Below, in pieces: positions 2,719 to 57,552 of a DNA stretch of 64,000 nucleotides (the first letter of the stretch is position 1; each line of letters starts with the position of its first letter). Source of the stretch: Hominimerdicola alba 8 (GTDB lineage: Bacteria; Bacillota; Clostridia; Oscillospirales; Ruminococcaceae). The notes beneath the pieces are model-generated. The model was not told the origin of the DNA and ran no database searches. It saw nothing but the letters and a program-made list of their open reading frames with translations. The stretch is taken from contig NZ_ADKM02000018.1 in NCBI RefSeq assembly GCF_000178155.2, forward strand, positions 1 through 64,000, in the 5' to 3' direction. The translations under genes were made by a program, and so were the position numbers.

Positions 2719-2734
2719 ACTCACTGTCAAATTG

Positions 2735-3533: not shown

Positions 3534-3547
3534 CTCTTTATCGCTTG

Positions 3548-4249: not shown

Positions 4250-4521
4250 GTCAAGACCTCCTCTTAAATGTCAGAAAAACGCGCGTTTGCGCAGTTGCCG
4301 CCGATGTCCCCCGCCCGACGGGGCAGAGTTTACCATTTAAATTATATCCGAGTTCGGGCGGCTTGTCCAGCGAAAACGGACGGATTTTACATTGTATCTT
4401 TAAAATTATACTTTTTAGACAATCACGCCGCGTGATAATTGGGCAATTACACCGTCCCGAACGCCCCGCGCATAACTATCCCCAATACGCCCGCGAACCG
4501 CCCGTCATAAAACGGAGGGCA
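4250..4521. other. Intergenic region between aquaporin start and uxuB stop
   Basis: 272 bases. It must hold the aquaporin promoter; a minus-strand TATAAT occurs near 4405-4415, but no well-placed -35 box was found. No terminator for uxuB, repeat or small gene was recognised. Confidence 0.4.
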
Positions 4522-6126: not shown

Positions 6127-6137
6127 AGCAATTCTCC

Positions 6138-7151: not shown

Positions 7152-7187
7152 ATCTGTTCACCATTTTTTATTAGTTTTTTGTTTGAT

Positions 7188-7670
7188 TTTTTGGGGTAGG
7201 GCGGGGGCTTGCTCCCGCCGTGTTACACCGCCACGCCGTGTTACATAACACCACCATGTTTAACGCCGAATTATCGGGTCACCGCCGCGAGGATTTGCCG
7301 TTTTATCGCGGGGGTGTGCGGCAAACTTGGGGTAGGGCGGGGGCTTGCTCCCGCCGCTTGATTATCGCCATGCCGTGTTAAAACGCCGAATTATCGGGTC
7401 ACCGCCGCGAGGGTTCGCCGTTTTATCGCGAGTGTGTGCGGCAAACTTGGGGTAGGGCGGGGGCTTGCTCCCGCCGCTTGATTATCGCCATGCCGTGTTA
7501 AAACGCCGAATTATCGGGTCATCGCCGAAAGGGTTTGCCGTTTTATCGCGAGTGTGTGCGGGTCGAACGGCGGGAGCAAGCCCCCGCCCTACACTATTGA
7601 CAGTTACCCGCCAAAACAGCCCGCTTTCGGTCATGTCAATAATTATGAATTATGAATTATGAATTAAAAC
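7188..7670. repeat. Mosaic repeat block A1 with 120-bp tandem units
   Basis: Three tandem units; 7321-7440 and 7441-7560 are near-identical with an exact 120-bp period, and a divergent unit precedes them. Each starts with a G-rich/C-rich hairpin (GGCGGGGGCTTGCTCCCGCC) and contains GCCGAATTATCGGGTCA and GCCGTTTTATCGCG. The block ends with an inverted copy of the hairpin and an ATGAATT heptamer array (about 7642-7665). No credible gene. It separates uxuA from kdgK. Confidence 0.85.
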
Positions 7671-8196
7671 ACGCCCTACACCTTAGAATTGCGTTTCACG
7701 TAAGGGAGCGATGACCGACCGCCGCGAAAGTCTGCCTTTTTTATCACTTTGGAGCTATGACCGACCGCCGAAGACGCTGTCGCTGTTCGGCTAGATGTCG
7801 CGGGCAATTCGTCGCACGCACATGGTTTCTGCGGGGCGAGAATTTTGAGCACGCTCTTTTCTTTGCGAATTGCCCGCTCTTTTTTTGTAGGGCGGGGGCG
7901 TTCGCGACTGTGTCGGCGTTACTCTCGCCGTTGTTTACCGCCACGCCGTTGTTTACCGCCGCTTGTGGACGTTCATTTTGCTATGCTTTTATTGCTTGAT
8001 GTGCATTTTGGCTTTGTGCTTCGGTGATTGAGGGCTCTGCCCTCAAACTCCCGCAAGCCTGCTGGCGCGAGGCTTGACCGCGCGCTTTTTCTCGCGCATA
8101 GCTTTGTGTTCTTACTCGGCTTTGTTGGGCGGCAAAGTGACCGCTGAAACTGCCCACTTTCGCCCCTGCCAATAATTATGAATTATGAATTATCCA
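7671..8196. repeat. Mosaic repeat block A2
   Basis: Contains an inverted pair GCGGGCAATTCG / CGAATTGCCCGC around 7799-7883, the palindrome TTGAGGGCTCTGCCCTCAA, CAAGCC/GGCTTG arms, and the conserved end GCCAATAATTATGAATTATG. On the minus strand this end reads out of uxuA and provides its stop codon. The short open frames here are near-identical DNA repeated elsewhere and show no sign of coding. Confidence 0.85.
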
Positions 8197-42015: not shown

Positions 42016-42148
42016 ATGATTCTTTCTCCTTACCTTATGTTGTTATACAGCTGTAAACCGCACAAATGCGGCATTTTAATACGATATCGCCATTCCTCAC
42101 GCACACCGTTCTATACGTCGGCATAACTTTGCTTCCGTCCGCCGCAGG

Positions 42149-42727
42149 TCATTCCACATAAAAATGCGAATTGTCCCGCTCGTCCAGCCTTATGATGTGC
42201 ATATCCAGCCCGGCGCGCCTTGCCATGTTGATAGTCTGCAAAGTGCCCGAACCCGCTGGCTTTTCCTTGTAGACCGCTATCATGCGCGATGAATGATCCA
42301 CCATGAACTGATTGCGCACACGGTACCTGCCCTTGTCACTGGCATTCCCCGTCACCACTACAGCTTCGGCGCACTGCATCAGCAGGCTGTGTATGTAGCG
42401 ATCCTTAACGCTGTTCAGTTCCCTGCGCTGTTCAGCATACGGAAGTACACAATACAGCTTTATATCCGGGTACCTCTTGTCGTTCATAACATCGAACATG
42501 ACAGAACCGCAAAGCAGATCCACACCCTCAGCCATACCTGTCATAAAATTCCTTGAACCCGCTTCATAGGCTTCTATTATGTGGAAATGCACGATACTCA
42601 GCAGATTACGCATACCCTGAGTTGAAAGATCCCCGTGAAAAGGAAGGTCACGATTTCTGTGACCCGTAAAACAACATGTACGTTCCCTATCGACCACCAG
42701 ATCTTTTGCTTCTACAAAAACAGCCAC
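42149..42727 (-). CDS. SLOG-family protein (DUF1273/YpsA-like)
   Basis: 192 aa from a GTG at 42727, preceded by GGAAGGCGG; the longer frame would place the start upstream of the promoter. Motif RTCCFTGHRNRDLP and later GMAEGVDLLCG (SLOG nucleotide-binding Rossmann fold) and VVTGNASDKGRYRVRNQFMVDHSSRMIAVYKE (in part). SLOG proteins bind nucleotide-derived ligands; YpsA influences cell division in Bacillus. Function here unknown. Confidence 0.8.
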   Translation of the reverse strand: MAVFVEAKDLVVDRERTCCFTGHRNRDLPFHGDLSTQGMRNLLSIVHFHIIEAYEAGSRNFMTGMAEGVDLLCGSVMFDVMNDKRYPDIKLYCVLPYAEQRRELNSVKDRYIHSLLMQCAEAVVVTGNASDKGRYRVRNQFMVDHSSRMIAVYKEKPAGSGTLQTINMARRAGLDMHIIRLDERDNSHFYVE

Positions 42728-42760
42728 ACAGTTCACCGCCTTCCGATAGCACTTATAGTC

Positions 42761-42789
42761 ATTATAACACACATTTTCCCATTTTTCAA
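42761..42789 (-). promoter_or_regulatory. Promoter of SLOG gene
   Basis: TTGAAA (42784-42789), 17 nt, TATAAT (42761-42766) on the minus strand. Confidence 0.7.
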
Positions 42790-42964
42790 TACCCTTTTTT
42801 CGATTTTGCCCCTGACTCAGCCGCCGTCGTACAGACTCCGCCATCTCCCAATGTCCCGCGTGCTGTCAGCTGTGACCTGTTCAGCAGGTGCGATATAGTT
42901 TAAAACTATATCTACCTATAGCGTTTTCATATATGCTTATATCCCGCTGTCGGAACAGTCCCAC

Positions 42965-42993
42965 TTGCAAAAATCATAGCAGTATGATATAAT
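42965..42993 (+). promoter_or_regulatory. Promoter of dockerin beta-propeller gene
   Basis: TTGCAA (42965-42970), 17 nt, TATAAT (42988-42993). The leader of about 50 nt shows no riboswitch-like fold or B12 box. Confidence 0.7.
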
Positions 42994-43050
42994 TACCTTG
43001 TTATAGGACATACAGATGCCCCAAATTTCTAACAGAACGGAGAATGTAAA

Positions 43051-44946
43051 ATGAGAAAAAGACCCGCTAAATTCCTGAGCGCTTTCTGCGCCGCTGTACT
43101 GGCTGTAAACGCGGCGGCTGTTTCCGCTATGGCAGAAAATACCGTCACCGATGCAGAAACTGCCCCCTATACCTATGACTGCCCCATCTTCACCGATGCC
43201 GATGATTCTGTGCTGTACTGGGCAACACAGGTAGGCTGGGATAAGGACTGGTGGTCGGATGCACCATCGGGCATAACTGCCGCCGATAACGGATATCTCT
43301 ATGTCTGCTCGGCTTACAGCATCTACAAGCTGGATAAATATACAGGCAAGATAGCAGGCAGCGGCAAGATGGCAGGTCAGGCTTCATATGCCACCAAAGG
43401 TCCTGCTTATGCTGACGGCAAAGTTTTCATGGCACTGGATAACGGCACTGTTCAGGCGTTCGATGCCGACACGCTCGAATCTCTCTGGATATACAAGAAC
43501 AAGCTGGGCGGCAGTCCTACCTGTGATATCGTTGTCAATGACGGCAAGATATATACAGGCTTCTGGAACGGTGAAGATGTCGATGCCGACTACGTTTGCC
43601 TCGACACTTCCGACCCCGATGCAGATACCACGAACGAACAGATAGAAGCTGACTGGGAGTTCACCAACTGCGGCGGCTACTACTGGACAACTGCCGCTTT
43701 CACCGATGACTACATCTTCATCGGCAGAGAGAACGGCGTTGCAGGCACCGAAGCCGATGAACCGCTCGGACTGATAAAGATAGATAAGAAGACCCTCGAA
43801 GCATCACTTCTCACAGGCGGCATAAAAAACGATGTCCGCAGTAAGATAGTCACTTACGGCAATAAACTCATCTTTACCGACCGTTCGGGCACCCTCTATT
43901 CGGTCGATGCGAACACAGGCGTTACTTCCTCATACAAGCTGGCAGAACAGCTGGGTCTTGAGGGCTTCACCTGCACCTCCACACCGATAATCGAAAACGG
44001 CAGAGTGTATATCACCCTTAACGGCACAGGCTGGGGCGACTATAACGGCTCGATGATAGCTGTATTCGACTACGTGGGCGGCGAGTTCCCGTTTGAACTT
44101 GCATATACCGTTGAAACAAAGTACGCTTGTCAGGCTGACGGCATCTTCGCAGGTGTTGACGCTGACGGCTATAATACCATCTACTACGTTGAGAACGGCT
44201 ATCCGGGTACTATCCGTGTGCTGAAAGATAAAAAGGGTATGACCGCACCTGTAAATACTGTCACCGAAACAGACGGCGACGGCAAGGAACACATCTGCCC
44301 CGACTTCGTTTTCAAGCCGCAGGGCGCACATTCACAGTACTGCGCGGTAGACCCCGTGTTTGACCCGCAGACAGGTCTTATCTTCGTAAGATATGACTCT
44401 TTCAACATTCTCGCTGTAGGTCCTGCCACAAAAGATATAGAATTTACAGCAGATGACATAACTATCCATCGCGGCGGCAAAGAAACTCTCGTTTACATGG
44501 CTGACCAGACTCCTACCGACTGCGACTATACGCTGAGCGTATGGAACACCACAGGCATATACGACTACGACCCGACAGAATACACCACTTTCAGCGTTGA
44601 CAAGTTCACCACCGATGACGAGATACTGACTGTTTCTTTCGGATTTGGTCTGTACACAGGCACAGGAAGCGCACCTGAATGCACTACCGATGTTGAAGTG
44701 CTGGTAGCCGAAACAGAAGACCAGTACAAGCGCGCACTGGCACAGCGCGGCGATGTCAACGGCGACGGTGTCGTAAATGTCACCGATGTTTCGCTCATCG
44801 CGGCACATGTCAAGAGTGTCAGGAAGATAGACAAGTACAGCATGAATGCCGCCGACACTAATGCTGACGGCGCTGTGAATGTCAGCGATATCTCCCTTGC
44901 CGCCGCACAGGTCAAGAGCGTCAAGAAGATAGACAAGGCAAGATAA
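43051..44946 (+). CDS. Secreted PQQ-like beta-propeller protein with C-terminal dockerin
   Basis: 631 aa. Signal peptide about 1-29 (ends AVSAMA). Residues 45-470 contain repeated propeller blades (DNGYLYVCSAYSIYKLDKYTGK, DGKVFMALDNGTVQAFDADTLES, GNKLIFTDRSGTLYSVDANTG) of the PQQ/quinoprotein-like type but without an obvious enzyme site. A small beta domain follows, then a type I dockerin at 564-631 with two calcium loops (DVNGDGVVNVTD, DTNADGAVNVSD). Dockerins plug proteins into a cohesin scaffold on the cell surface. It opens the same-strand run of DUF4430 and ECF genes, which makes a ligand-capture role as plausible as a fibre-binding one. Confidence 0.85.
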   Translation: MRKRPAKFLSAFCAAVLAVNAAAVSAMAENTVTDAETAPYTYDCPIFTDADDSVLYWATQVGWDKDWWSDAPSGITAADNGYLYVCSAYSIYKLDKYTGKIAGSGKMAGQASYATKGPAYADGKVFMALDNGTVQAFDADTLESLWIYKNKLGGSPTCDIVVNDGKIYTGFWNGEDVDADYVCLDTSDPDADTTNEQIEADWEFTNCGGYYWTTAAFTDDYIFIGRENGVAGTEADEPLGLIKIDKKTLEASLLTGGIKNDVRSKIVTYGNKLIFTDRSGTLYSVDANTGVTSSYKLAEQLGLEGFTCTSTPIIENGRVYITLNGTGWGDYNGSMIAVFDYVGGEFPFELAYTVETKYACQADGIFAGVDADGYNTIYYVENGYPGTIRVLKDKKGMTAPVNTVTETDGDGKEHICPDFVFKPQGAHSQYCAVDPVFDPQTGLIFVRYDSFNILAVGPATKDIEFTADDITIHRGGKETLVYMADQTPTDCDYTLSVWNTTGIYDYDPTEYTTFSVDKFTTDDEILTVSFGFGLYTGTGSAPECTTDVEVLVAETEDQYKRALAQRGDVNGDGVVNVTDVSLIAAHVKSVRKIDKYSMNAADTNADGAVNVSDISLAAAQVKSVKKIDKAR

Positions 44947-45001
44947 GCCGAAAAACACAGGCTGTCCGTTACCATACCGACAGCTGAAAAACATAATGCT
45001 G

Positions 45002-45035
45002 AGGGCAGAGCGAAATCATATCTCGTTCTGCCTTT
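45002..45035 (+). terminator. Partial terminator after dockerin gene
   Basis: AGGGCAGAGCGA / TCGTTCTGCCTTT hairpin with only three T after it, so read-through to the next gene is possible. Confidence 0.5.
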
Positions 45036-45057
45036 AGGCGTATAAAGGGGCGCTTTT

Positions 45058-47028
45058 ATGGCAGACAAGAAAAGCCGCAGAACAGCTGTAACAGCAATGG
45101 CTGCCGCTGCCGTCATTACGGTGGGCGGGGTCTGCTTTGGTGCGCTTTTTTACCGAAATGCCCCGCGTTCGCTGACTGCCGCCGAAGTCATACACCGCGA
45201 AGCCGACCTGCCCGATATAACATTCAGCGGCACTGCCGATAACATCAGCAAAGCCGATGAAACGAGCAGTTCCCCCGAAAGTTCGCGCACTGACAGCAGT
45301 TCACAAGACAGTTCGGAGAGGGAGAGTTCTCTTTCGGAGAGTCTTCCCCGCACAGAAAGCCGTACACCCGCCGCAAGTGACGACAGCCGCTCAGGAAATA
45401 TACCGCAGAGCACTGAAACTGTCTATACATCGGCAGAAAGTTCACTTGCCGAGAACAGCAGTCTTACGGACGAGAGCCGCCCCGCCCCCACAGCGGTGCA
45501 GGCTGTCCCCGATGCGGGCACGCCCGCCAAAACAGCCCCAAGCGGCAAAGAAGCCGACCGCGAATACTTCACCACCTCGATAAATGACGGCGAAACTGTC
45601 AGCGAAAGTGTGTATTTCTTCACCATCGAGCATCTTGTGAAAGAACTTGAAGTGGTGCGCTGTGATGTGGAACTCAACGGTTCGGTGCTGACAGGCTACG
45701 CGGGCAAGTGCCGCCTTAAAGAGGGTGAGAACAGCATACGTGTCAGCTGTACCTACAAAGACGGCGACAACCGCGTTTACAGGGCATTCCGCGACTACAC
45801 GGTGAACCTTGTCAGCCCCGACAGCGCCATATATACCGACCTCACCGACTGCGATGTTTTTGAAAGCGCATTCAGCTTCACAGCCGAGTGCGAAGACGGT
45901 CTTTCGGTGTGGCTGAACGGCATACCTGTTGAGGGTGACGGGCGCTACACTGTTACCCTCAGCGAGGGCGAGAACATGATAAGGCTGTCATCGGGCAGGC
46001 GCGAACTGAATTTCTCGGTGACATACATACCTCTGCGTGAACTTGACATAATCACCGACCTTACCGACTGCACCGTTTACGGCAGTGAACTTGTTTTCAC
46101 AGCGCAGGCGGTCGGCAGTTCGCCAAAACTGACCGTACAGCTTAACCGCAAAACTCTGCGCGGTGACGGCGGTATCTATACAGCGGCACTGAATGACGGC
46201 ACCAACAGCATACATCTGCTTGCCCTTGACGGCGCAAAGCGGGTCGAAAAGACCTTTACGGTGACCTGCCTGCCCACCGCCGAAGAGGGTCGTTCGCCGT
46301 ACATAGCCGATATAAACCTCACAGATAATATGACCGTAAAGGGGAGCAGTTATTCGCTCAGCCTTAAAGCCGCCGACTATGAGGGCGGGCGCATCTACGC
46401 TGACGGCATCGAAGTAGCCTGCGGCGGTGCATCTGCCGAGCGCAGGTGGGAGGACTCACAGTCAACGGGGTATCTGCTGAAACTCCATGCAGGCGAGAAC
46501 AGCGTGTATATCCGCCTGAAAGACAGCATCGGCAGGACTGCCGAATTTTTCTACAGCATAAACTGCGAAGCGGCAGGCATCGGTGAAGAAGTCGGGCGCA
46601 TATCCATAAAAGCGCAGGCGGACATCTTAGGATTGGGCGTGCTTTGCGAAGATGACAGCTATCCCGTTTTAGAGGGCGAAACAGGCTTTGATACGATAGT
46701 GAGATTTCTGCGCGACAACGGATTTGAGGTAAGTTCGCGCGGCAGTGAGAACAGCCGCTATCTTGACAGGATATACAAAGAGGGCAGATTTGCGGGCGGT
46801 GCGCTTTCGGAAGAAGCCCTTGCATATACCGAAAGGGCGGGCATAAGCATCAACGGCGGCAAAGATGATGACTCACTGGGCGAATTTGACTACACCGCAG
46901 GTTCGGGCTGGTTATACAGCCGCGGCGGACGAAAGCCGTCTTACGCGATGTCGGCGGCAGTCTTTGCCGATGGTGAGGACATCGAACTGAGTTTCTCGCT
47001 GGATTTCGGCAATGATGTTGTGAAGTGA
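45058..47028 (+). CDS. Membrane-anchored beta-repeat protein with C-terminal DUF4430 domain
   Basis: 656 aa. Basic N terminus and one helix (about 8-30), Ser/Glu-rich spacer (about 60-165), then four beta-sandwich repeats, the second and third beginning alike (YTDLTDCDVFESAFSFTAE, ITDLTDCTVYGSELVFTAQ) and each ending in a GENxIRL/GTNSIHL strand. The last ~135 residues are a DUF4430 domain (VLEGETGFDTIVRFLRDNGF ... GSGWLYSRGG ... FADGEDIELSFS). DUF4430 corresponds to the beta domain of transcobalamin and intrinsic factor. I infer a surface cobalamin-binding protein held away from the membrane by the repeats. Confidence 0.8.
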   Translation: MADKKSRRTAVTAMAAAAVITVGGVCFGALFYRNAPRSLTAAEVIHREADLPDITFSGTADNISKADETSSSPESSRTDSSSQDSSERESSLSESLPRTESRTPAASDDSRSGNIPQSTETVYTSAESSLAENSSLTDESRPAPTAVQAVPDAGTPAKTAPSGKEADREYFTTSINDGETVSESVYFFTIEHLVKELEVVRCDVELNGSVLTGYAGKCRLKEGENSIRVSCTYKDGDNRVYRAFRDYTVNLVSPDSAIYTDLTDCDVFESAFSFTAECEDGLSVWLNGIPVEGDGRYTVTLSEGENMIRLSSGRRELNFSVTYIPLRELDIITDLTDCTVYGSELVFTAQAVGSSPKLTVQLNRKTLRGDGGIYTAALNDGTNSIHLLALDGAKRVEKTFTVTCLPTAEEGRSPYIADINLTDNMTVKGSSYSLSLKAADYEGGRIYADGIEVACGGASAERRWEDSQSTGYLLKLHAGENSVYIRLKDSIGRTAEFFYSINCEAAGIGEEVGRISIKAQADILGLGVLCEDDSYPVLEGETGFDTIVRFLRDNGFEVSSRGSENSRYLDRIYKEGRFAGGALSEEALAYTERAGISINGGKDDDSLGEFDYTAGSGWLYSRGGRKPSYAMSAAVFADGEDIELSFSLDFGNDVVK

Positions 47029-47029
47029 C

Positions 47030-47152
47030 CGCCATACACTCTTGACATGTTATCGCAAGAAAATGCGTCATGGTTTGCGCTTTCTTTCCGCCAGACCAGC
47101 TATCTTTCGCCCCTGCCAATAATTATGAATTGTGAATTATGAATTATGAATT
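47030..47152. repeat. Mosaic repeat end (block G)
   Basis: A short remnant: CTTTCGCCCCTGCCAATAAT followed by four ATGAATT-type heptamers (one mutated to GTGAATT), just before the ribosome site of the toroid gene. Confidence 0.7.
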
Positions 47153-47179
47153 ATATTATGATTCCGGAGTGTTTATTAC

Positions 47180-48352
47180 ATGAAATTTTTTCCTATCGCT
47201 TTTCTCTCTGCTGTGTTATGCCTTTCCCCCCTCACGGCTTCCGCTCTCGATGTTTCTGCCGCTAAAGGCTATGCACAAGGTATCATAACTTATGAAAAGG
47301 ATATAAATGATATCTCCCCCAACGAAAGCCTGCTGTCAGGCAAAATAGCCGATAATGCCGCCGAAGACAGTTCCGACTGGCTCGCCATCGGCGCGGTGAG
47401 ATACGGTCTGGAAAATGATACTTACTCCTACTACCTCAGCTGGAAAAAGAACATAAATGATAAGTATACCCATGACGGCGGTCTGCACCGCATGAAAGCC
47501 ACCGAATGGCACCGCGCTGTCCTCACCTGCCTCTGTCTTGGTGCCGACCCCTCCGACTTATCTGGCATCGACCTCCTCGAAGACGGCATTTTCAGCCGCG
47601 GCGATGCTTCCCCTCTCGATGCACAAGGGCTGAACGGTCTTGTCTGGGGTCTTATCGCCCTCGACAGCTGTGACTGGAAAGTTCCCGATGATGCAGAAGT
47701 TGACAGACTCGGAATAATAAGGGAGATAATAAATTCCCAAAACGAAGACGGCGGTTTTTCGATGGAAAGCGGCGCAGGCAGAAGTGACCCCGACCTCACC
47801 GCGATGGTATTGCAGTCCCTCGCCCCCTACCGCGAATGCAGTGAGGTCAGGCAGGTCATAACAGCGGCACTCGACTATCTTAACGATGAAAAGGACGATT
47901 TTTCCACCTGCGAAACATACGCGCAGGTCATCTGCGGACTTTGCTGTCTTGGAATCGACCCCGACAACGATGAACGTTTCAGCGGACTTACCGAAGAACT
48001 TGTCAGCTACGCCAACGACGACGGCGGTTTCGCCCACGAAAAAGACGGTGAAAGCAGTGAGATAGCCTCCGCGCAGGCACTTATCGCCCTGTGCAGTATC
48101 GACAGGCTTCGCGGCGGCGAGCGAAGCATCTACGACATGAACATCGGCGCTCCCGCAGAAATGACCGCCCAAAGCCTTGTTTCTGCGGCAAACGCCAAAG
48201 AGGTCAACACAAAGTCCCCCGTCACCGATGGTCTGCCATCGCCCATAAAGCACGAAAGCGTGCGCTTCAAACGCCTGCTGATAGCCTCGCTGACATCGGG
48301 CATAACGGTCGCGGTGGTCATCGGCGTGATACTTCGCAGAAAAAGGAGCTGA
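47180..48352 (+). CDS. Membrane-anchored alpha/alpha-toroid protein, transcobalamin alpha-domain-like
   Basis: 390 aa. Signal peptide about 1-22 (TASA). Residues 60-315 form alpha/alpha-barrel repeats of the prenyltransferase/squalene-cyclase type: NSQNEDGGFSMESGAGRSDPDLTAMVLQSLAPY and YANDDGGFAHEKDGESSEIASAQALIALC (in part). No DxDD or other cyclase motif is seen. The same fold is the alpha domain of intrinsic factor and transcobalamin. A C-terminal helix (about 363-385, LLIASLTSGITVAVVIGVIL) and RRKRS anchor it to the membrane with the toroid outside. Flanking DUF4430 and ECF genes point to cobalamin handling. GGAG ribosome site. Confidence 0.8.
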   Translation: MKFFPIAFLSAVLCLSPLTASALDVSAAKGYAQGIITYEKDINDISPNESLLSGKIADNAAEDSSDWLAIGAVRYGLENDTYSYYLSWKKNINDKYTHDGGLHRMKATEWHRAVLTCLCLGADPSDLSGIDLLEDGIFSRGDASPLDAQGLNGLVWGLIALDSCDWKVPDDAEVDRLGIIREIINSQNEDGGFSMESGAGRSDPDLTAMVLQSLAPYRECSEVRQVITAALDYLNDEKDDFSTCETYAQVICGLCCLGIDPDNDERFSGLTEELVSYANDDGGFAHEKDGESSEIASAQALIALCSIDRLRGGERSIYDMNIGAPAEMTAQSLVSAANAKEVNTKSPVTDGLPSPIKHESVRFKRLLIASLTSGITVAVVIGVILRRKRS

Positions 48353-48433
48353 CGCGGCAGTTGTACCGATACAACTCCCCCCGCGCCATGACATACCGCA
48401 AACAGCTATCCCCCAAAAAGAAAGGTGAAACTT

Positions 48434-49375
48434 ATGAACGAATTTCCTGCAAGGCTGAAAGAAAACCTGACAAAAGTGATAGTCGGCAAGGACGACACTA
48501 TCGAGATGCTGATAGCGGCAGTGCTGGCAGGCGGTCATGTGCTTCTTGAAGATGCACCGGGCACAGGCAAGACCACCCTTGCACTGGCACTGGCGAGAAG
48601 TCTGGGACTTAAATTCAAGCGCCTTCAGCTGACCCCCGACACGGTAGCATCTGACATAACAGGCTACTCGGCATATGACCCCGCAAAAGGCGGGATGGTC
48701 TTCCACGCGGGGGCGGCTATGACCAATTTACTGCTGGCAGACGAACTTAACCGCACATCGGGCAGAACTCAGTCTGCACTGCTGGAAGCTATGGAAGAGG
48801 GTCAGCTGACAGTTGACGGCGTGACCTACCCCCTGCCAAAGCCTTTCACCGTCATCGCCACACAGAACCCCGTCGGAACAGCGGGTACAGCGGCTATCCC
48901 ACTCTCTCAGCTTGACAGGTTCATGGTGCGGCTGAGTCTTGGTGCGCCCGACAGCGAGTCACTGAAAAAACTGCTGACCGACCGCGCATCGGCTGACCCC
49001 CTGGAAAGCGTTGAAGAAGTCTGCGGTGCTGAGGAACTGTCTGCCATAAAGGAAGATATCTCCGCCGTGACTTTCAGCGAAGAACTCACCGACTATGTAT
49101 GCGCGCTGTGGCAGGCTATAGCTGACAGCGAAGACACTCTCTGCGGCATATCGCCGCGCGGCGCTCTCGCACTTTGCAGGATAGCGCGCGCGGGCGCGTA
49201 TCTTGACGGGCGTGACTATGTAGTGCCATCGGATATAAGGGTCTGCTTTTCGGCAGTATGCGCTCACAGGCTGACCCTCACCCGCGAAGCAAAAGCGGCA
49301 GGCAGGTCGGCGGAAGATGTGCTTGCGGCAGTGCTCAGAGCAGTCCCCTGCCCCGAAAACAGGGGAAATAAATGA
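48434..49375 (+). CDS. MoxR-family AAA+ ATPase
   Basis: 313 aa from the ATG at 48434 (AAAGGTG upstream; a GTG within that site is rejected). Walker A APGTGKTT (about 41-48), Walker B LLLADELNR (about 99-107), and ATQNPVGTAGTAAIPLSQLDRF sensor region. MoxR ATPases act as chaperones for assembly of von Willebrand-type or membrane complexes and are usually found with DUF58 and transglutaminase-like genes, as here. Stop overlaps the DUF58 start (ATGA). Confidence 0.92.
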   Translation: MNEFPARLKENLTKVIVGKDDTIEMLIAAVLAGGHVLLEDAPGTGKTTLALALARSLGLKFKRLQLTPDTVASDITGYSAYDPAKGGMVFHAGAAMTNLLLADELNRTSGRTQSALLEAMEEGQLTVDGVTYPLPKPFTVIATQNPVGTAGTAAIPLSQLDRFMVRLSLGAPDSESLKKLLTDRASADPLESVEEVCGAEELSAIKEDISAVTFSEELTDYVCALWQAIADSEDTLCGISPRGALALCRIARAGAYLDGRDYVVPSDIRVCFSAVCAHRLTLTREAKAAGRSAEDVLAAVLRAVPCPENRGNK

Positions 49376-50298
49376 AGCGGGCGGCATTCACAGCACTCAT
49401 CGCGGTAGGGCTTATATTGTGGAAGTTTTCTGCGGCGGGGCTTTATCTGGCGGCGGCAGTCATCGCGGCGGGTGTCATTGCGGCGGCTGAAAATCTGGCT
49501 GACAAGGGTGAAGTCAAAGTCAGCTGTGACGAACTTTTCCCCAAAAAAGGTCACGCCCCTGTGCTGACTTTCGGCGGCAGAAAACGGCTGAAAGGTCGGG
49601 TGCTGTGCGAGAACATCGTCACAGGCGAGCGCAGTGCTTTTGATGTGAAGATCGGCAGAACGCGCAGTTTCGCCCTCCCCGCGCAGGCTGACTGCGGCGG
49701 GCTGTTCATTCGTTTCGTGCAGTTTTCGCGCTGTGACCTGCTGGGGCTTACGCGGCTCACAGTGGTCTGCCATGCGGACGGATATATCACCATAATGCCC
49801 GAAAACACCGATGTCAGCGCCCTTTTTGACCCGTCATCGGGCGAAGAGGAACTTGACGGCGCACGCGAACTGACAGGCGGCGAACCTCTGCGGCGGCTGA
49901 ACTACAAGCTGACCCACCGCTTCGGCAAACCGTATGTGAACATCTACTCGCCCGAAAATGCGGGAGATATATGGCTTTTCGGTGACTACGGGCTGGCTGA
50001 CGGCGCGGCAGATGCGGCAGAAAAACTCTGTGCGCTGGCGGCATTTCTCGAAGAGCGCGGCGTTCCTTTCGGGCTGGCACTGCCCTGCGGAGAAAATGAT
50101 GTTCAGCTGACCGACCGCGCTGACAGCGAGAGCGTCCTGCAAGCGGTACTGCACTTCCCGCTTTATTCATGCGAGGGTCACAGCGTACTGCCCGCACTGA
50201 TGACCCGCCTGCCCGATGATGTGCAGGTGCTTGCATTCACCCGCAATACTGCCTTTGAAGACGACCGCGTGACGATACTGAGAACCGTCAAAAACTAA
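49372..50298 (+). CDS. DUF58-domain membrane protein
   Basis: 308 aa. Two N-terminal membrane helices (about 4-45), then the beta-rich region typical of DUF58 proteins. The motif ELDGARELTGGEPLRRLNYKLTHRFGKPYVNIY (in part, about 160-190) is a variant of the family's R.Y..GD..R.I.W..sA segment. Likely partner of the MoxR ATPase; family role unclear. Coupled to both neighbours. Confidence 0.8.
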   Translation: MKRAAFTALIAVGLILWKFSAAGLYLAAAVIAAGVIAAAENLADKGEVKVSCDELFPKKGHAPVLTFGGRKRLKGRVLCENIVTGERSAFDVKIGRTRSFALPAQADCGGLFIRFVQFSRCDLLGLTRLTVVCHADGYITIMPENTDVSALFDPSSGEEELDGARELTGGEPLRRLNYKLTHRFGKPYVNIYSPENAGDIWLFGDYGLADGAADAAEKLCALAAFLEERGVPFGLALPCGENDVQLTDRADSESVLQAVLHFPLYSCEGHSVLPALMTRLPDDVQVLAFTRNTAFEDDRVTILRTVKN

Positions 50299-50314
50299 TC
50301 TTACAGGAGAAACC

Positions 50315-52105
50315 ATGAAAAACAGGCGTGACTTTCCTGCCGCACTGATATTCGCATTCGCGGCGGGGCTTTTGGTCTATATGCTGTCGGGGGTGACTGC
50401 GGGTGCGTCAGCCCTGCTTTTGTGTACCATCACGGCGGCGGCATCGAATAAATTCGGGCGGCTGTGGGGATTTGCACCTGCTGTCTGCGCAGTGGCGGCG
50501 GCAGTGGTATTTCGCCGCGAATTTATGGCAGAATGCGCCCTCTGCGCCGATGAATTTGCCTACCGCACAGCGGTCAGGGCGCAAACCCTCTATGCCCCTG
50601 TTTCGGGCGCGGCAGACAGCGCTTGGCTTGTCCTGCTTGCTTTCTGCGGGGCGGCATGTGCAGTGTATGCGGCTTTCGGCGCGAGGGTCTTCTGCCTCAC
50701 AGCGGCATTGTTCGCGGCGGCGGCAGAACTTTTCACAGACGTTCCCGCATGGGCGCTGTGTACGCTCATCGGGCTGACGGTCGGTGCGTTCTGCTTTGGC
50801 GAAAATGGCGGAAAAGCCTTGCTTTTAACGGCACTGACCGCTCTGCTGACAGCACCCGCATCACTGCTTGCTTTCCCCGAAACTCCCCCGAAAGGCGAAG
50901 TCACCGCATCGGGCGGTCTGCCCCTTTATCTGGCAGAAGAATATGAGCGCGCCGACCTGACAAAAAGCGAATACGCGCGTGCTTCTGCCATATTCTTAGC
51001 ACTTGAAGAACAGGGCTTCGACCCGCACATGCAGTCGGGTCTGCTTATCGAAGCGTCAGGCGAAGAACTCCCCCTTGACGATGTGACCGCACCCGAAGGT
51101 TATCAGCCCGCAAACATCTGCGCGGCTGACAGCGGCAGAACACAGGTCTGCCGACAGTTCGGTGAGAACGTCTTTCTGCTGATATCAAAGCTGAAAAGCG
51201 GCAGATACCTCGACTGTGAAGGGCTTTACAGGGAGTATGTCTACTCAGCCTACGGCAAGCTGACCGCTGACGAACAGCGCGAAATGGAAGAAAAATTCGG
51301 CATTGACGGTACCCTGCCCCTTGACCGCAAGCTGGCGGCTGTGAAGTCGGGCATAAACGCCAAAGTCACCGATGAGAGCGAACGTTCACCCCTTACCGTG
51401 AAACTGGCGCGAAGCTGTGGTCTGGCGGCGCGTGAAGTGCGCGGCGTTTACTTTGGTGCGATGCCTGCAAGCGGCAGGGCTGACCTTTCTGAGGGCGAAC
51501 AGAGAAGCTGGGTGGAAGTCTACATAGACGGTGCAGGCTGGGCAGTTTTTGAGAGCAAGCCCGAATATGCGGGCGCATCTCCCCTACTGCCCGAAGGTGC
51601 ATCACCTGACGGCGAAAGCACATTCAGTGACAGCGCAGAACAGTACATCTACGCCGCCGCGCCGCCCCGCACAGCGGCAGAGATACGCACCCCCGATAAG
51701 GCGAAAAAGCCCTCACCGACATGGGCGGCACTGCCTGCGGGCGCGGTCGTTCTTCTTATCTTTGCGGGTCGTGCAAGGGCTTTTGTGAGATGGCGAAAGC
51801 GCTCTTCAAAGGACTTCGGCAAAGCTGTGACAGCCTCGCATTTTCAGGGCAGAGAACTTCTTTCAGCGGCGCTTTGCATCAGCGAAAAACTCCCCCCCGA
51901 AGAAGCCGCATCACAGCTTGACGGTCTTCTGCGCACACGTTTCGAGCGCTCGGAGCGTGCATTCGAGCGAATGCGCTTTTCCGACCTCGCCGCAGACGAA
52001 GAGTCAGCAAAATGCGCGGCAGAATTCCACAAAGAAGCGCAGACAGCCGCCAAAAAATGCGGCTTGCGCAAGCGTTTCGCACTGTGGCTGAAAGGTCTTG
52101 TCTGA
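50315..52105 (+). CDS. TgpA-like transglutaminase-fold membrane protein, catalytic triad lost
   Basis: 596 aa. About five N-terminal membrane helices (1-190), an extracytoplasmic part with a transglutaminase-like core (about 340-440), a further membrane helix (about 470-490) and a cytoplasmic C terminus. In active proteins the core reads C..F...(L)RalGipaR, then HAWVEVY, then DPT. Here the corresponding segments read SPLTVKLARSCGLAAREVRG, RSWVEVYIDGAGW and VFESKP, so Cys, His and Asp are all replaced. Third member of the MoxR-DUF58-transglutaminase triad; probably structural rather than enzymatic. Confidence 0.8.
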   Translation: MKNRRDFPAALIFAFAAGLLVYMLSGVTAGASALLLCTITAAASNKFGRLWGFAPAVCAVAAAVVFRREFMAECALCADEFAYRTAVRAQTLYAPVSGAADSAWLVLLAFCGAACAVYAAFGARVFCLTAALFAAAAELFTDVPAWALCTLIGLTVGAFCFGENGGKALLLTALTALLTAPASLLAFPETPPKGEVTASGGLPLYLAEEYERADLTKSEYARASAIFLALEEQGFDPHMQSGLLIEASGEELPLDDVTAPEGYQPANICAADSGRTQVCRQFGENVFLLISKLKSGRYLDCEGLYREYVYSAYGKLTADEQREMEEKFGIDGTLPLDRKLAAVKSGINAKVTDESERSPLTVKLARSCGLAAREVRGVYFGAMPASGRADLSEGEQRSWVEVYIDGAGWAVFESKPEYAGASPLLPEGASPDGESTFSDSAEQYIYAAAPPRTAAEIRTPDKAKKPSPTWAALPAGAVVLLIFAGRARAFVRWRKRSSKDFGKAVTASHFQGRELLSAALCISEKLPPEEAASQLDGLLRTRFERSERAFERMRFSDLAADEESAKCAAEFHKEAQTAAKKCGLRKRFALWLKGLV

Positions 52106-52111
52106 ACGCAC

Positions 52112-52285
52112 GAAAATGCCCCGATCTATCAACACTCACACCGAAAAAATGTTGAAAAACAGGCTATGCGCGGCAGTTTCGGGCAGAGTGCAGGCAGTCC
52201 GATGATATGCAAACGCATAACTTCCCAAAACGCCCCGAATTATCAACATTTGCGGCTGAAAAATGTTGAAAGATCGGCGCATTCG
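52112..52285. promoter_or_regulatory. Tandem 58-bp stem-loop repeats upstream of DUF4430-ECF genes
   Basis: Two direct copies (52112-52170 and 52227-52285) of AAAAyGCCCCGA..TATCAACA...TGTTGAAA. Each contains a TCAACA/TGTTGA inverted repeat; in copy 2 the stem is 9 bp. They could be tandem operator sites or tandem RNA structures controlling the genes that follow. No cobalamin-riboswitch core was found here. Confidence 0.5.
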
Positions 52286-52341
52286 GATATTTACAGCAAC
52301 GGGCGCATGACAGCCCCATAAAAAAGAAAAGAGGTGACGGC

Positions 52342-52803
52342 GTGAAAAAACGGGATATATTGTTTTTTGGCGGGTGCGCGGCTGCGGCTGCGGCGCTTCT
52401 GCTGACGGTGGACATACAGACCCCCGCCGAGTACTACGCCGCTCACCCCACCGCAATAACCGAAGACGGCGCATTTATCGAACTTCGGGTGGACAGTTCC
52501 GCTGTGGCTGAGGGCGGCGTTATCTTAGACGGACGCTATGCCCTCGCTGAGGGTGACAGCGTTTTCGATGTGGTCGAACGTGTGCTGAGGGCTGAGGGCA
52601 TCTCTTTAGACTACAGCGGCGGCAGGAACATCTACGTGGACGGCATCAACGGCATATACGAACTCGACTACGGCGCACAGTCGGGCTGGATATATAAAGT
52701 GAACGGCACAGCCCCCGACATCAACTGCGGCGAATATCAGCCTGTTTCGGGCGACGACATCGAATTTGTCTACGTGACGGAATACTACGGGGGTGGCAGA
52801 TGA
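52342..52803 (+). CDS. Small membrane-anchored DUF4430 protein
   Basis: 153 aa from a GTG at 52342 with GAGGTG upstream. One N-terminal helix (about 7-23) then a DUF4430 domain: VDSSAVAEGGVILDGRYALAEGDSVFDVV (part), LDYSGGRNIYVDGINGIYELDYGAQSGWIYKVNG and GDDIEFVYVTEYY. The SGWxYxVNG signature is intact. DUF4430 is the beta-domain-like half of animal B12 carriers. The stop overlaps the ECF T start by 4 nt, which ties this candidate binding protein directly to the transporter. Confidence 0.88.
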   Translation: MKKRDILFFGGCAAAAAALLLTVDIQTPAEYYAAHPTAITEDGAFIELRVDSSAVAEGGVILDGRYALAEGDSVFDVVERVLRAEGISLDYSGGRNIYVDGINGIYELDYGAQSGWIYKVNGTAPDINCGEYQPVSGDDIEFVYVTEYYGGGR

Positions 52804-53660
52804 AGGCTTTTCACCCTTTAGCGCGGCTTGCGGCGACGACGGCTGTGCTGGTCATACTGATGTTCTGCCGTTCTGTCACTGCGGCGGCAGTGGGACTTGT
52901 GACGGGTCTTTGCTGTATCGGTCTTACAGACGGCAGAAAAAGCCTGCTGAAATGGCTCGGCGCGTCCCTGCTGACAGCGGCATTGATGGCGTTCATCGAC
53001 CCGCTGGTGTCCCATCGCGGCATGACCGTTCTTCTCTTCGTAAACGGCAGAGCCTACACGCTGGAGTCGATGCTCTACGGGCTTGAACTGGGGCTTTCGC
53101 TGGGCGGCGTGACAGTCTGGCTGACGGCTGGCAGACGACTCATCAGCGAGCGCGAGATGCTCTGCATGATGGGCAGGCTGTCCCCGAAACTTGCGCTGAC
53201 AGTCAGCATGACGCTGGGCTTCATTCCCCGCCTTGCCGAAACTCAGCGCCGCATAAGAGATGCACAGCGGGGCGCGGGTCTTTTTGCCGACAACAGCCCC
53301 ACAGGGCGCATGGGCGAAGCTATGGCAGTGTTCACCGCATGCGCGGCGCGGGCGGCTGAGAATGCGGCAGGCGCGGCAAGGTCGATGAACGCGCGGGGCT
53401 TCGGGCGGCATCGGCTGACATATTCTGACAGGCGAAAACTGCGCCGCGCAGATATTATCCTCACAGCCGCAGAAGTCCTGCTTACGGCGGTTTCACTGGT
53501 ATTTGCGGCGCTGGGCGGCGCAACAGAATTCTACCCTGCATTGAAATTCGGCAGATATGAACCCGCACTGGCCGTCATCTGCGGCGCGGCGGGTCTGCCT
53601 GCGGTCATAAGTCTTGCAAAGGAGGTCATCGAATGGAAGCTGTATCTGCCAAAGGGCTGA
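52800..53660 (+). CDS. ECF transporter T component (CbiQ/EcfT family)
   Basis: 286 aa. Membrane scaffold of an energy-coupling-factor importer: several helices in residues 10-115 and 205-275, and two Ala-Arg-x coupling signatures in the cytoplasmic helices, seen as AQRGAGLF and AARSMNARGFG. These contact the ATPases. Gene order T - A/A' - S is that of a dedicated (group I) ECF system. The end overlaps the ATPase start by 28 nt. Confidence 0.88.
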   Translation: MKAFHPLARLAATTAVLVILMFCRSVTAAAVGLVTGLCCIGLTDGRKSLLKWLGASLLTAALMAFIDPLVSHRGMTVLLFVNGRAYTLESMLYGLELGLSLGGVTVWLTAGRRLISEREMLCMMGRLSPKLALTVSMTLGFIPRLAETQRRIRDAQRGAGLFADNSPTGRMGEAMAVFTACAARAAENAAGAARSMNARGFGRHRLTYSDRRKLRRADIILTAAEVLLTAVSLVFAALGGATEFYPALKFGRYEPALAVICGAAGLPAVISLAKEVIEWKLYLPKG

Positions 53661-55228
53661 GTTTTCGGCATAACACAGCCAAAAAGCCCGCCCTTGAGGG
53701 CGTCCGACTGTCTGCGGCGGCGGGCGAACTTGTCATGCTGATGGGCAGTTCGGGAAGCGGCAAGACCACCCTCCTGCGGCTGTTAAAGCCCGAAATCGCG
53801 CCGCTGGGCGAAGTTTCGGGCGAGATACGCATATTCGGTGAAAAAGCCGCCGCCCCTCAGCCGAAAGTGGGCTATGTACCACAGCACCCCGAAGAGGGCT
53901 TCGTCAGTGACACAGTGCGCGGTGAGATAATGTTCGCGCCCGAAAATGCGGGGCTTTCACCCGAAGAGGTGCGGCGGCTGACCGCTGAAACGGTGTCGCG
54001 CTTCGGGCTGGGCAAACTCCTCACCCGCAAACTTGACGGTCTTTCGGGCGGCGAAAAACAGCTGGTCAGCCTGTGCGCCGCGATGGTCGTTCAGCCCGAC
54101 ATTCTCCTGCTTGACGAGCCTTTCAGCCGCCTTGACCCCGTTGCGGCTGAAAACATGGCGGCGCTGATACTGCGGGTCAACCGCGAACTCGGCGTGACGG
54201 TCATCGTGGCTGAACACTCGGCTGAACAGCTGTTTGCAGAGTGTGACAGGGTGGTATTCCTCGAAAACGGTCGTGTCACAGCAGACCTCCCCCCGCGCAA
54301 AGCGGCGGCTCTGCCTGCGGTGAGGGCTTATGCACCTGCGGCGGCGCGGGCTTTTGCGAATGCCGAACCCCTCCCGCTGACGGTGCGCGAGGGCCGCGAG
54401 ATGCTGGCTCACTCCGAACACCTTGTCGAAGTACCTCTGCCGCAAGGCAAAGTCTTCACCGAAAAAGTCCTCGAAGCCGACGGTCTGCGTTTCGCTTTCA
54501 CACGCGGCGGCGAGGATATCCTTGACGGCACAGACATCGTACTGCACAAGGGCGAATTTCTCGCGCTGGCAGGCGCTAACGGCAGTGGCAAGACCACTCT
54601 GCTGAGGGTGCTGGCAGGGCTGGCGCGACCTTACGCAGGCAAGCTGATGATAGGCGGCAAGCCCCCTAAAAAGGCGGCTCTGCGTGTCGGTATGCTCCCG
54701 CAGGAAGCGGCTGACCTCTTCTTACAGCCCACAGTCCTCGAAGATTACCGCTATGCGCTCAGAGCGATGGGCAAGCCCGAAAACATGGCAGAAGAGATGC
54801 TCGCGCGGCTTGGCGCGGAACATCTCGGCAATATGCACCCCTACGACCTCAGCGGCGGCGAATTACAGCTGTGCGCACTGGGACGTGTGCTTCTGTGTAA
54901 GCCCGATATACTCCTTGCAGACGAGCCGACAAAGGGTCTTGACCCCATTTCTGCAAGCCGCATCGGTCATCTGCTGAAAGAACTCTGCGCAGAGGGCAAA
55001 GCAGTGCTGGCAGTCACCCACGACCTTGAATTTGCCGCATGTCACGCCGACAGCTGTGCGCTTTTCTGCGGCGGCAGAGCCGAAAGCCTTATGCCGTCAC
55101 CGCACTTTTTCGCCCGCGCAGGCTTTTACAGCACCGCCGCAGGACGTATCTCGCGAGGCATGGTAAAAAACGCCTATCTCACCGAACATTTGCAGGCGGC
55201 TTTCGGGGGTGGCACATATGATAGATAA
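53633..55228 (+). CDS. Fused ECF ATPase (EcfA-EcfA')
   Basis: 531 aa with two complete ABC domains in one chain. Domain 1: Walker A GSSGSGKTT (38-46), signature LSGGEKQL, Walker B ILLLDEPFSRLD. Domain 2: Walker A GANGSGKTT (about 315), signature LSGGELQL, Walker B ILLADEPTKGLD. Most clostridial ECF systems have separate ATPases of ~280 aa, so the fusion supports a dedicated transporter of the YkoD/CbiO2 kind. AAGGAGG precedes the ATG. Powers uptake with the T and S components on either side. Confidence 0.93.
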   Translation: MEAVSAKGLSFRHNTAKKPALEGVRLSAAAGELVMLMGSSGSGKTTLLRLLKPEIAPLGEVSGEIRIFGEKAAAPQPKVGYVPQHPEEGFVSDTVRGEIMFAPENAGLSPEEVRRLTAETVSRFGLGKLLTRKLDGLSGGEKQLVSLCAAMVVQPDILLLDEPFSRLDPVAAENMAALILRVNRELGVTVIVAEHSAEQLFAECDRVVFLENGRVTADLPPRKAAALPAVRAYAPAAARAFANAEPLPLTVREGREMLAHSEHLVEVPLPQGKVFTEKVLEADGLRFAFTRGGEDILDGTDIVLHKGEFLALAGANGSGKTTLLRVLAGLARPYAGKLMIGGKPPKKAALRVGMLPQEAADLFLQPTVLEDYRYALRAMGKPENMAEEMLARLGAEHLGNMHPYDLSGGELQLCALGRVLLCKPDILLADEPTKGLDPISASRIGHLLKELCAEGKAVLAVTHDLEFAACHADSCALFCGGRAESLMPSPHFFARAGFYSTAAGRISRGMVKNAYLTEHLQAAFGGGTYDR

Positions 55229-55895
55229 AAAAAGCGCCGCACTGCTGGCGGCGGCTCTGTCCATCATCGGGGCTGGCTGTGCCGCCTTTGCTGACAGGGC
55301 GGCAAGCTGGGTGATATGTTCGGCGGCGGTGGCAGTCTGCGGCGGTCTGCTGATACGCTTTGAGAAACGTCAGGACACTTCCGGCGACATCGCTCTCGCC
55401 GCAGTCATGACAGCCCTCGCAGTGGTGGGAAGGCTCATCTTCGCCGCTGTGCCCGCGTTCAAGCCCTGTGCGGCGGTCATAATACTGGCGGGCATATATC
55501 TGGGCGGCGAGCGCGGATTCACCATCGGGGCGCTGACTGCGCTGATATCGAATTTCTACTTTTCGCAGGGCATCTGGACACCTTTCCAGATGATGGTCTG
55601 GGGGCTGACAGGTCTGCTGGCTGGCGTGCTTGGCAGATATCTCCGCAACAACCGCGTATTTCTGGCGCTTTTCGGCATTCTTGCAGGGGCGGTCTACTCG
55701 GTAAGCCTTGATGTGTGCAGTATGCTTTGGCTGGGCGGCGGCTTTTCGGCAGAACGTTTCATCGGTCTGACGGCGGCATCTGCGTACTTCACCGTCAGCT
55801 ACATGCTGTCGAACGCAGTGTTCCTGCTTGTGTTCGTCAGACCCGCCGCGCGCATCTTCGACCGTCTGCGCGACAAATACGGCATCGGCAGATAG
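55218..55895 (+). CDS. ECF transporter substrate-binding (S) component, CbrT-like
   Basis: 225 aa from the ATG at 55218 (GGGGGTGG upstream); an in-frame GTG three codons earlier overlaps that site. Six membrane helices. The loop GIYLGGERGFTIGALTALISNFYFSQGIWTPFQMMVWGLTG (in part, about 95-135) matches the S-component group that includes the cobalamin binder CbrT (SNFxFGQGPWTPWQM pattern, from memory). This and the neighbouring DUF4430 genes make cobalamin or a corrinoid precursor the likely ligand. Overlaps the ATPase end by 11 nt. Followed by a strong terminator. Confidence 0.85.
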   Translation: MIDKKSAALLAAALSIIGAGCAAFADRAASWVICSAAVAVCGGLLIRFEKRQDTSGDIALAAVMTALAVVGRLIFAAVPAFKPCAAVIILAGIYLGGERGFTIGALTALISNFYFSQGIWTPFQMMVWGLTGLLAGVLGRYLRNNRVFLALFGILAGAVYSVSLDVCSMLWLGGGFSAERFIGLTAASAYFTVSYMLSNAVFLLVFVRPAARIFDRLRDKYGIGR

Positions 55896-55920
55896 CGAAC
55901 GTTTCGGCGTTCGCTTTTTT
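55895..55920 (+). terminator. Terminator of the ECF operon
   Basis: GCGAACG / CGTTCGC stem and six T immediately after the S-component stop. Confidence 0.85.
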
Positions 55921-56973: not shown

Positions 56974-57552
56974 ATGTACACTAACGGCATAATAGTCCAG
57001 CGAAAGACAGATGCCCCCTGCGGTTACAGAGGTATAGACGGCAGCGGGTTCAGCTATGCAGTGGGCGAGAACTGGTTTCTCAGGTACGAGGAGAATTTTG
57101 AAGAGTATTACGATGAAAACATCGGGCTGACCTATTACGATGTCGGTGACCGCGAATGGGTTAACGCCTGCACCGACAGGGCGCATATCCGCCAATATAT
57201 CGAGGAAGCCGAAAAGCGCGGCATACCTTACAGGCTGATACTCTGTGAAAGCTGTGTCCCTCAGCCCATAATGGAAGATGTGCCGCAGAAAAAGACTTTT
57301 CTGGGCTACGACTACGCCTATTCGGACGGCGACAACTATTCGGCGGTGTACAACGAGATACCCTGTGTGTTTGACAGTTTCAGGCTGAACGAAAACGGTC
57401 TGTTCGACAGAGAAGAGGAACTTCAAAAGTATCTGGAGGCGCGTGAGAAATTCGTGCGCAGTCACCCGCCCCACACCCTTGAGGACGGCGGATTTGTCAT
57501 TTTCAGATTATGGGAGATAGACAGAAGTGAGTTTATGGGAGGTCAACCATGA
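56974..57552 (+). CDS. Hypothetical cytoplasmic protein upstream of CotH
   Basis: 192 aa, acidic, rich in Tyr, Glu and Asp, with no signal or membrane segment. Begins MYTNGIIVQRKTDAPCGYRG; WFLRYEENFEEYYDENIGLTYYDVG is strongly aromatic-acidic. AGGAGG ribosome site and consensus promoter. The stop overlaps the CotH start (ATGA), so the products are probably functionally linked. Family not recognised. Confidence 0.75.
   Translation: MYTNGIIVQRKTDAPCGYRGIDGSGFSYAVGENWFLRYEENFEEYYDENIGLTYYDVGDREWVNACTDRAHIRQYIEEAEKRGIPYRLILCESCVPQPIMEDVPQKKTFLGYDYAYSDGDNYSAVYNEIPCVFDSFRLNENGLFDREEELQKYLEAREKFVRSHPPHTLEDGGFVIFRLWEIDRSEFMGGQP

Follow-up and report, generated by a model that had tools for sequence, protein, structure and literature searches.

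The animal vitamin B12 carriers intrinsic factor and transcobalamin combine an alpha/alpha toroid with a DUF4430-type beta-grasp domain (PMC1796856). In 2007, Burroughs et al. predicted that bacterial SLBB/alpha-alpha-toroid proteins encoded with CbiO/CbiQ genes scavenge B12, and they proposed that the fused form was transferred to animals (PMC1796856). Here, we describe a ten-gene operon of Hominimerdicola alba 8 that can be compared with these systems. The operon occupies positions 43051 to 55895 of a 64,000-nucleotide window, which is the whole stretch of DNA that was analyzed (contig NZ_ADKM02000018.1, positions 1 to 64,000). Judging from sequence, surface capture of cobalamin or related corrinoids, followed by import via an energy-coupling factor (ECF) transporter, is very likely the function of the operon; ligand binding, hand-over, a role of some genes in assembly, and the regulator are the parts of this reading that we infer.

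The operons described by Burroughs et al. and the operon in the window share a secreted transcobalamin-C-like (DUF4430) protein, a toroid, a second paralogous SLBB protein, and CbiO/CbiQ-like genes. A propeller fused to SLBB was mentioned in the 2007 paper, whereas the propeller in the window is a separate protein, and its main text gave no match to the terms MoxR, riboswitch, methionine, or transglutaminase. The toroid plus DUF4430-type beta-grasp combination is common to the window and to intrinsic factor and transcobalamin. The animal carriers are single polypeptides, whereas the window encodes two membrane-anchored bacterial proteins in separate genes and 13 relatives encode a fused protein.

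Four other described systems resemble parts of the operon. The ECF-CbrT transporter of Lactobacillus delbrueckii (PMC5997447) has a homologous S component, and both systems have EcfT and two ATPases; in the window, however, EcfA and EcfA' are fused and are encoded in one operon with the S component and the surface proteins. The term DUF was not matched in the text of the ECF-CbrT paper. In Bacteroides, BtuG is a surface beta-propeller of B12 transport loci, which is also the predicted setting of the window propeller. BtuG is seven-bladed and described as confined to Bacteroidetes (PMC6143338), and the window propeller differs from it in being of the PQQ/BamB type and in carrying a dockerin. 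In the PFNA cluster of bifidobacteria, genes for an AAA-ATPase (MoxR), a DUF58 protein, and a transglutaminase-like protein (TGase) lie beside a large surface protein (PMC8430577), as they do in the window. The PFNA cluster has an FN3 protein and a kinase, whereas in the window the neighbors are candidate B12 capture proteins, and the transglutaminase-like domain is without catalytic residues. Finally, the MET box of streptococcal LysR-type methionine regulators (MtaR and CmhR), with the consensus TATAGTTTnAAACTATA, precedes methionine genes (PMC2627894; matching site in PMC5359408), and the same pattern precedes both the window operon and metF. The window differs from the streptococcal regulons in that the site additionally precedes a candidate B12 capture operon.

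Gene content of the operon and its S component

The original prediction described ten same-strand genes that included two DUF4430 proteins, an anchored toroid, a propeller, and a full ECF transporter. This description was confirmed by the open reading frames (ORFs), all ten of which are on the plus strand at the coordinates below, by Pfam, and by family profiles.

43051..44946, plus strand: PQQ/BamB-type beta-propeller, secreted, with a C-terminal dockerin (Pfam PQQ_2, E 9e-11; Dockerin_1)
45058..47028, plus strand: immunoglobulin (Ig)/cadherin-like protein, membrane-anchored, with a divergent C-terminal DUF4430 at residues ~510-652 (Pfam cadherin-like; profile comparison for DUF4430)
47180..48352, plus strand: alpha/alpha toroid (putative alpha half), with a signal-like N-terminus, a C-terminal membrane helix, and last residues RRKRS (Pfam Prenyltrans)
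48425..49375, plus strand: MoxR-family AAA+ ATPase (Pfam AAA_3, E 2.3e-49)
49372..50298, plus strand: DUF58-like membrane protein (counterparts in relatives match PF01882)
50315..52105, plus strand: membrane protein with multiple helices, whose transglutaminase-like domain has neither the catalytic Cys nor the catalytic His position (Pfam Transglut_core; alignments)
52342..52803, plus strand: membrane-anchored DUF4430 protein (putative beta half; Pfam DUF4430, E 1.7e-15)
52800..53660, plus strand: EcfT transmembrane coupling protein (weak CbiQ match; EcfT family profile)
53633..55228, plus strand: fused EcfA-EcfA' ATPase (two ABC_tran stretches; ECF_ATPase_1/2 matches)
55209..55895, plus strand: CbrT-family ECF S component (6fnp_A, E 1.8e-8; family profile, E 2.6e-21)

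Four of the nine gene junctions are overlaps of 4 to 28 bases. The DUF4430, EcfT, EcfA-EcfA', and S genes overlap successively by 4, 28, and 20 bases, and the MoxR and DUF58 genes overlap by 4 bases. The widest intergenic gap (236 bases) lies between the transglutaminase-like and DUF4430 genes.

The best match of the S component among solved structures was chain A of 6FNP, over residues 61-225; this structure is ECF-CbrT of L. delbrueckii, a vitamin B12 transporter (PMC5997447). The single-sequence search returned one further structure match up to E 1, at E 0.36, and a family profile of 24 relatives returned the same two structures, the second at E 6.8e-7. A CbrT-like loop had originally been proposed for the S component. 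The likeness to CbrT held up, but the homology spans most of the S component and is not specific to a loop. Together with the S component, we found both EcfT, via a family profile and a weak CbiQ match (E 0.0013, under the Pfam cutoff), and two ATPase modules. In five relatives (L033, L036, L037, L097, and L099), a single reading frame of ~850-920 residues encodes the S component together with the double ATPase.

Cobalamin riboswitches in related loci

Cobalamin-class riboswitches were detected in 23 of the 41 loci scanned with Rfam, and a family-wide search placed riboswitches in at least 8 further fetched loci. The set of 31 mapped riboswitches thus consists of 23 from unselected scans and 8 that were chosen for falling inside fetched loci. 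In all 31 cases, genes for a toroid, propeller, DUF4430 protein, EcfT, S component, or MoxR protein were located downstream on the same strand, and in no case on the opposite strand; in L059, two of these island genes were additionally located upstream. The next island gene in the 30 loci that were measured encoded a toroid, propeller, DUF4430 protein, or EcfT, at a distance of 700 bases or less in 27 loci and of 1.1-1.3 kb in the other 3.

Two Bacilli illustrate the arrangement. In Siminovitchia thermophila, a riboswitch ends 47 bases ahead of an ORF whose product has an LPXTG anchor, and this ORF is followed by genes for DUF4430, Ig-DUF4430, toroid, DUF4430, EcfT, EcfAA', S, MoxR, DUF58, and transglutaminase-like proteins. 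Hence, the whole gene set of the window, with the exception of the propeller, is headed by a riboswitch in this species. In Lysinibacillus macroides, a riboswitch lies ~170 bases before a DUF4430-toroid-ECF run. The S component is homologous to CbrT, and in relatives the same genes stand behind cobalamin riboswitches; therefore, B12 or a related corrinoid is the predicted substrate. The occurrence of the methionine synthase MetH and a MET box in common with metF, both described below, are consistent with this substrate.

Toroid genes that lacked EcfT or S genes nearby served as a comparison. None of the seven such control loci scanned with Rfam, which are a part of the toroid loci without EcfT or S, had a riboswitch; two others, L026 and L032, had one each. 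In L032 (positions 987-7958), a cobalamin riboswitch is followed by genes for a toroid protein of 1998 residues and for a DUF4430 protein, with no EcfT or S gene in 18 kb, which suggests stand-alone surface B12 binding by the toroid and DUF4430 proteins. Seven loci (L043, L044, L046, L048, and L050-L052) encode toroid proteins of ~395-553 residues without EcfT, S, or a cobalamin riboswitch nearby.

Conservation of the gene neighborhood

The family survey covered 197 genomes. A toroid relative was found in 62 genomes and an S relative in 63; by a hand count of these lists, 45 genomes had both (Fisher p 3e-16). We then counted same-strand neighbors within 12 kb of the S gene in S loci from 59 of the 63 S-positive genomes, the window included. 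DUF4430 genes were found in 46 of these 59 loci, toroid genes in 35, propeller genes in 8, EcfT genes in 55, and ATPase genes in 54. Six S loci had propeller and DUF4430 genes ahead of the ECF genes, with no toroid gene within 12 kb.

Outside the family, we inspected the best 80 of at least 589 relatives in named genomes. Toroid and DUF4430 were joined in one protein in 32, were both present as separate proteins in 19, and were represented by DUF4430 alone in 5; neither was found within the stretch covered in the remaining 24. Among these best 80, the core genes were found again in members of both the Clostridia and the Bacilli, including Lachnospiraceae, Ruminococcus, Siminovitchia, Lysinibacillus, and Bacillus. 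The core of the neighborhood is conserved in relatives within the family and beyond it.

The toroid and DUF4430 proteins as a putative split clamp

The window toroid matched Prenyltrans with an E value of 1.5e-5 and 25 bits, slightly under the Pfam cutoff of 26.5. It has a signal-like N-terminus and a hydrophobic helix at its C-terminus. The second DUF4430, at the C-terminus of the 45058-47028 product, escaped Pfam in the window copy. The other six of the seven sequences in its alignment matched DUF4430, and when profiles were compared, its relationship to the clear DUF4430 set had a probability of 99.7% and an E value of 8.5e-26.

In 13 of the 59 S-anchored loci, as well as in L053, which lacks an S gene, a single protein has the order toroid-helix-loop-helix-DUF4430. 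In these fused proteins, two hydrophobic helices with a short basic loop join the toroid to the DUF4430 domain. The window DUF4430 protein begins with MKKRD, a helix, and a DIQTPAEYY stretch that aligns with the equivalent stretch of the fused proteins. With this start and the helix plus RRKRS end of the toroid, the window pair looks, at the sequence level, like a fused protein that was cut at its loop, with three genes between the halves.

Split and fused forms occur within one genus, the former in G158 and the latter in G065. When the fused state was placed on the S-component tree (n = 59), at least seven gains or losses were needed on well-supported branches. The label used for the tree was assigned automatically to 19 of the 59 loci and includes 6 loci in which DUF4430 precedes the toroid, whereas the count of 13 refers to the order toroid-helices-DUF4430 only. 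The close relatives L029 and L030 differ in their split or fused state, a difference for which a frameshift or an assembly error is possible. Repeated fusion and fission is a classic sign of two proteins that work together. The split, intrinsic factor-like clamp that had been postulated is strongly supported because 13 of the 59 loci carry the joined protein and the window halves separate at its loop; the binding of a ligand and its hand-over are predicted properties of the clamp.

The propeller and the MoxR, DUF58, and transglutaminase-like genes

Residues 567-616 of the propeller protein are a type I dockerin, which was not visible in the aligned propellers of other genera. Through this dockerin, the propeller may attach to a cellulosome-like scaffold. 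A sequence relationship to BtuG, which the original prediction cited as a B12-binding propeller, was not found in the searches, and BtuG can be regarded at most as an analogy. The best matches were to designed propellers, PQQ enzymes, and BamB, and neither 3DSM nor any chain named BtuG was among the best 60 of the 71 structure matches.

The 49372-50298 product had no Pfam family match of its own. Its counterpart in L143 matched DUF58 (PF01882) above the cutoff, and those in L026 and L133 matched it slightly under the cutoff. The positions that we take to be the catalytic Cys and His of the transglutaminase-like proteins have degenerated in most of the proteins aligned. The Cys position is Ser in L026 and L133 and Ala in L143; in the window and G158 proteins the Cys stretch is gapped and the His is replaced as well. 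The L022 protein is among those without the catalytic cysteine, and the protein of L053, a locus without EcfT or S, keeps both Cys and His. The degenerate domain may be involved in binding or serve as a scaffold. A chaperone function in complex assembly has been described for MoxR proteins (PMC8430577). Two other assignments were rejected for these genes. A role of the MoxR, transglutaminase-like, or propeller genes in defense found no PADLOC match at E 1e-5, and the likeness of the MoxR protein to Mg/Co-chelatase subunits was far under cutoffs and was read as general AAA+ similarity.

It is conceivable, if improbable, that only the ECF-DUF4430-toroid core handles B12 and that the propeller, Ig, MoxR, DUF58, and TGase genes belong to a neighboring surface-protein system, e.g., one related to cellulosomes. 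The dockerin, the 236-base gap before the DUF4430 gene, the absence of the propeller from 51 of the 59 S loci and of MoxR from most of them, and the bifidobacterial MoxR-DUF58-TGase genes that adjoin an FN3 surface protein (PMC8430577) would all agree with such a boundary, but the riboswitches do not respect it. In genome G154, the L026 run propeller-(Ig-)DUF4430-toroid-MoxR-DUF58-TGase has no EcfT or S gene and has its own riboswitch, and the separate DUF4430-ECF operon L094 has another. A propeller homolog is the first island gene after the riboswitch in seven loci, and the riboswitch precedes the propeller in all six propeller-DUF4430-ECF loci. Furthermore, the run that the riboswitch heads in Siminovitchia continues past the S gene into the MoxR-DUF58-TGase genes. 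These arrangements favor a surface capture system to which all ten genes would belong.

B12 metabolism and probable control by a MET box

The B12-dependent enzyme MetH is present in the genome that contains the window. Hosts of the operons described by Burroughs et al. usually do not have key enzymes of B12 biosynthesis; in the H. alba genome, there was no match to CbiD, the sole B12 biosynthesis enzyme for which we searched. This negative result and the ability of CbrT to bind cobinamide (PMC5997447) would be compatible with a system that chiefly imports cobinamide or non-B12 cobamides from neighboring microbes rather than cobalamin, a variant to which we assign a low probability.

No cobalamin riboswitch was detected in the window at the gathering threshold or in the leader (42100-43200) at a permissive threshold. 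Comparison of the window and G158 leaders identified a different element, which is listed here with the two other features of the operon ends.

42892..42912, strand not assigned: MET box, an inverted repeat of 10 + 10 bases about one central base, GATATAGTTTAAAACTATATC; probable site of a LysR-type methionine regulator (window/G158 leader comparison)
42965..42993, plus strand: promoter-like site, TTGCAA-17-TATAAT, ahead of the first gene (consensus match only)
55894..55915, plus strand: terminator-like hairpin with a T run, at the end of the last gene (consensus match only)

The MET box pattern matched once in the window and in none of 100 shuffles. An equally placed MET box precedes the propeller gene in G158 (one mismatch) and in G197 (two mismatches), the genome of the S relative L116, which is 94% identical. 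With up to two mismatches allowed, the H. alba genome has two MET boxes only, one at the operon and one at metF (G000:C119:104813-104833, L203), whose identity was supported by a TIGR00676 match above cutoff. G197 has four, which precede the propeller gene, metF, metE (clipped by the end of the locus), and an SsuA-family ABC transporter gene. In G065, which has the fused form, there was no MET box at up to two mismatches. Because the MET box is common to the operon and metF and MetH is present, the sequence evidence links the operon to methionine synthesis that depends on B12. The possibility that the ECF transporter and its surface proteins instead serve methionine or a sulfur-containing methionine precursor, to which the company of metF, metE, and the SsuA-family gene and the MET boxes ahead of metQ uptake genes in group B streptococci (PMC2627894) might point, is very remote, as among solved structures CbrT comes closest to the S component, many relatives carry cobalamin riboswitches ahead of these genes, and a methionine regulator is also sensible for the B12 that MetH needs.

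The leader region is shared with a divergent YpsA/SLOG-family gene (42149-42844, minus strand), and a protein resembling its product is encoded on the far side of the MET box in L206. A CotH kinase-domain protein with a chitobiase C-terminal domain is encoded at 57549-59570 of the window, ~1.6 kb downstream of the operon.

DISCUSSION

In the mechanism that we propose, the toroid would form the alpha half and the DUF4430 protein the beta half of a transcobalamin-type clamp. One membrane helix would tether each half, and the pair would stand in for the single toroid-helix-loop-helix-DUF4430 protein of relatives. Two more proteins, the Ig-DUF4430 protein and the secreted propeller, may act in outer capture; for the propeller, gene order and riboswitches suggest this role. 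The clamp would pass its ligand to the CbrT-type S component, with EcfT and the double ATPase powering uptake, and the imported B12 would be used by MetH. On the basis of gene order and riboswitches, the MoxR, DUF58, and degenerate transglutaminase-like proteins probably function in assembling or holding the surface complex. In this genus, a methionine regulator probably turns the operon on via the MET box, replacing the cobalamin riboswitch of many relatives.

Several results weigh against B12 capture by this operon. Riboswitches were not found in 18 of the 41 loci scanned with Rfam. RF00174 and RF01689 were not detected anywhere in the H. alba genome, and RF00174 was not detected in two relatives of the same genus, which were searched with stricter filters and whose island loci, L022 and L038, were also empty. 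Thirteen of the 59 S loci, some of them on short contigs, lack both DUF4430 and the toroid. PF02607, the B12-binding domain of the MetH type, shows a weak association with the S component (55 of 63 versus 101 of 134 genomes by hand count, p 0.06). The toroid profile is nearer to squalene-hopene cyclases (E 1e-17) than to transcobalamin II (E 1.1), a ranking that does not support a close transcobalamin relationship on sequence. For the DUF4430 family profile, the top PDB chains were transcobalamin-2, with E values of 0.049-0.75 that are not significant alone. Finally, the MET boxes of streptococci govern methionine uptake genes too (PMC2627894).

The original prediction held that no Gram-positive system of this composition had been characterized. 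No experimentally characterized system of this kind turned up in the titles and abstract openings searched, in literature that was mostly outside subscription journals; the core idea, however, was already predicted in 2007 (PMC1796856). What is new is the split point, the riboswitch link, the probable MET-box control, and the recurrence of the propeller and the MoxR-DUF58-transglutaminase-like genes as partners.

More broadly, we tentatively suggest, with confidence a little short of even, that these loci represent a widespread form of Gram-positive B12 capture. Interchangeable toroid, propeller, and DUF4430 modules would feed CbrT-type ECF transporters, and the clamp would have been repeatedly fused and split at its membrane hairpin. 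In some lineages, MoxR-DUF58 and a transglutaminase-like protein without its catalytic residues would provide assembly. Control would have switched between riboswitches and methionine regulators, and in this lineage the dockerin of the propeller may dock on a cellulosome-like scaffold.

The operon offers a testable surface capture system, for which relatives are available as the named strains Siminovitchia thermophila DSM 105453, Lysinibacillus macroides DSM 54, and Bacillus ndiopicus FF3. It also gives context for the proposal that the animal B12 carriers originated in bacteria, and it draws the propeller and the MoxR-DUF58-transglutaminase-like genes into B12 regulons.

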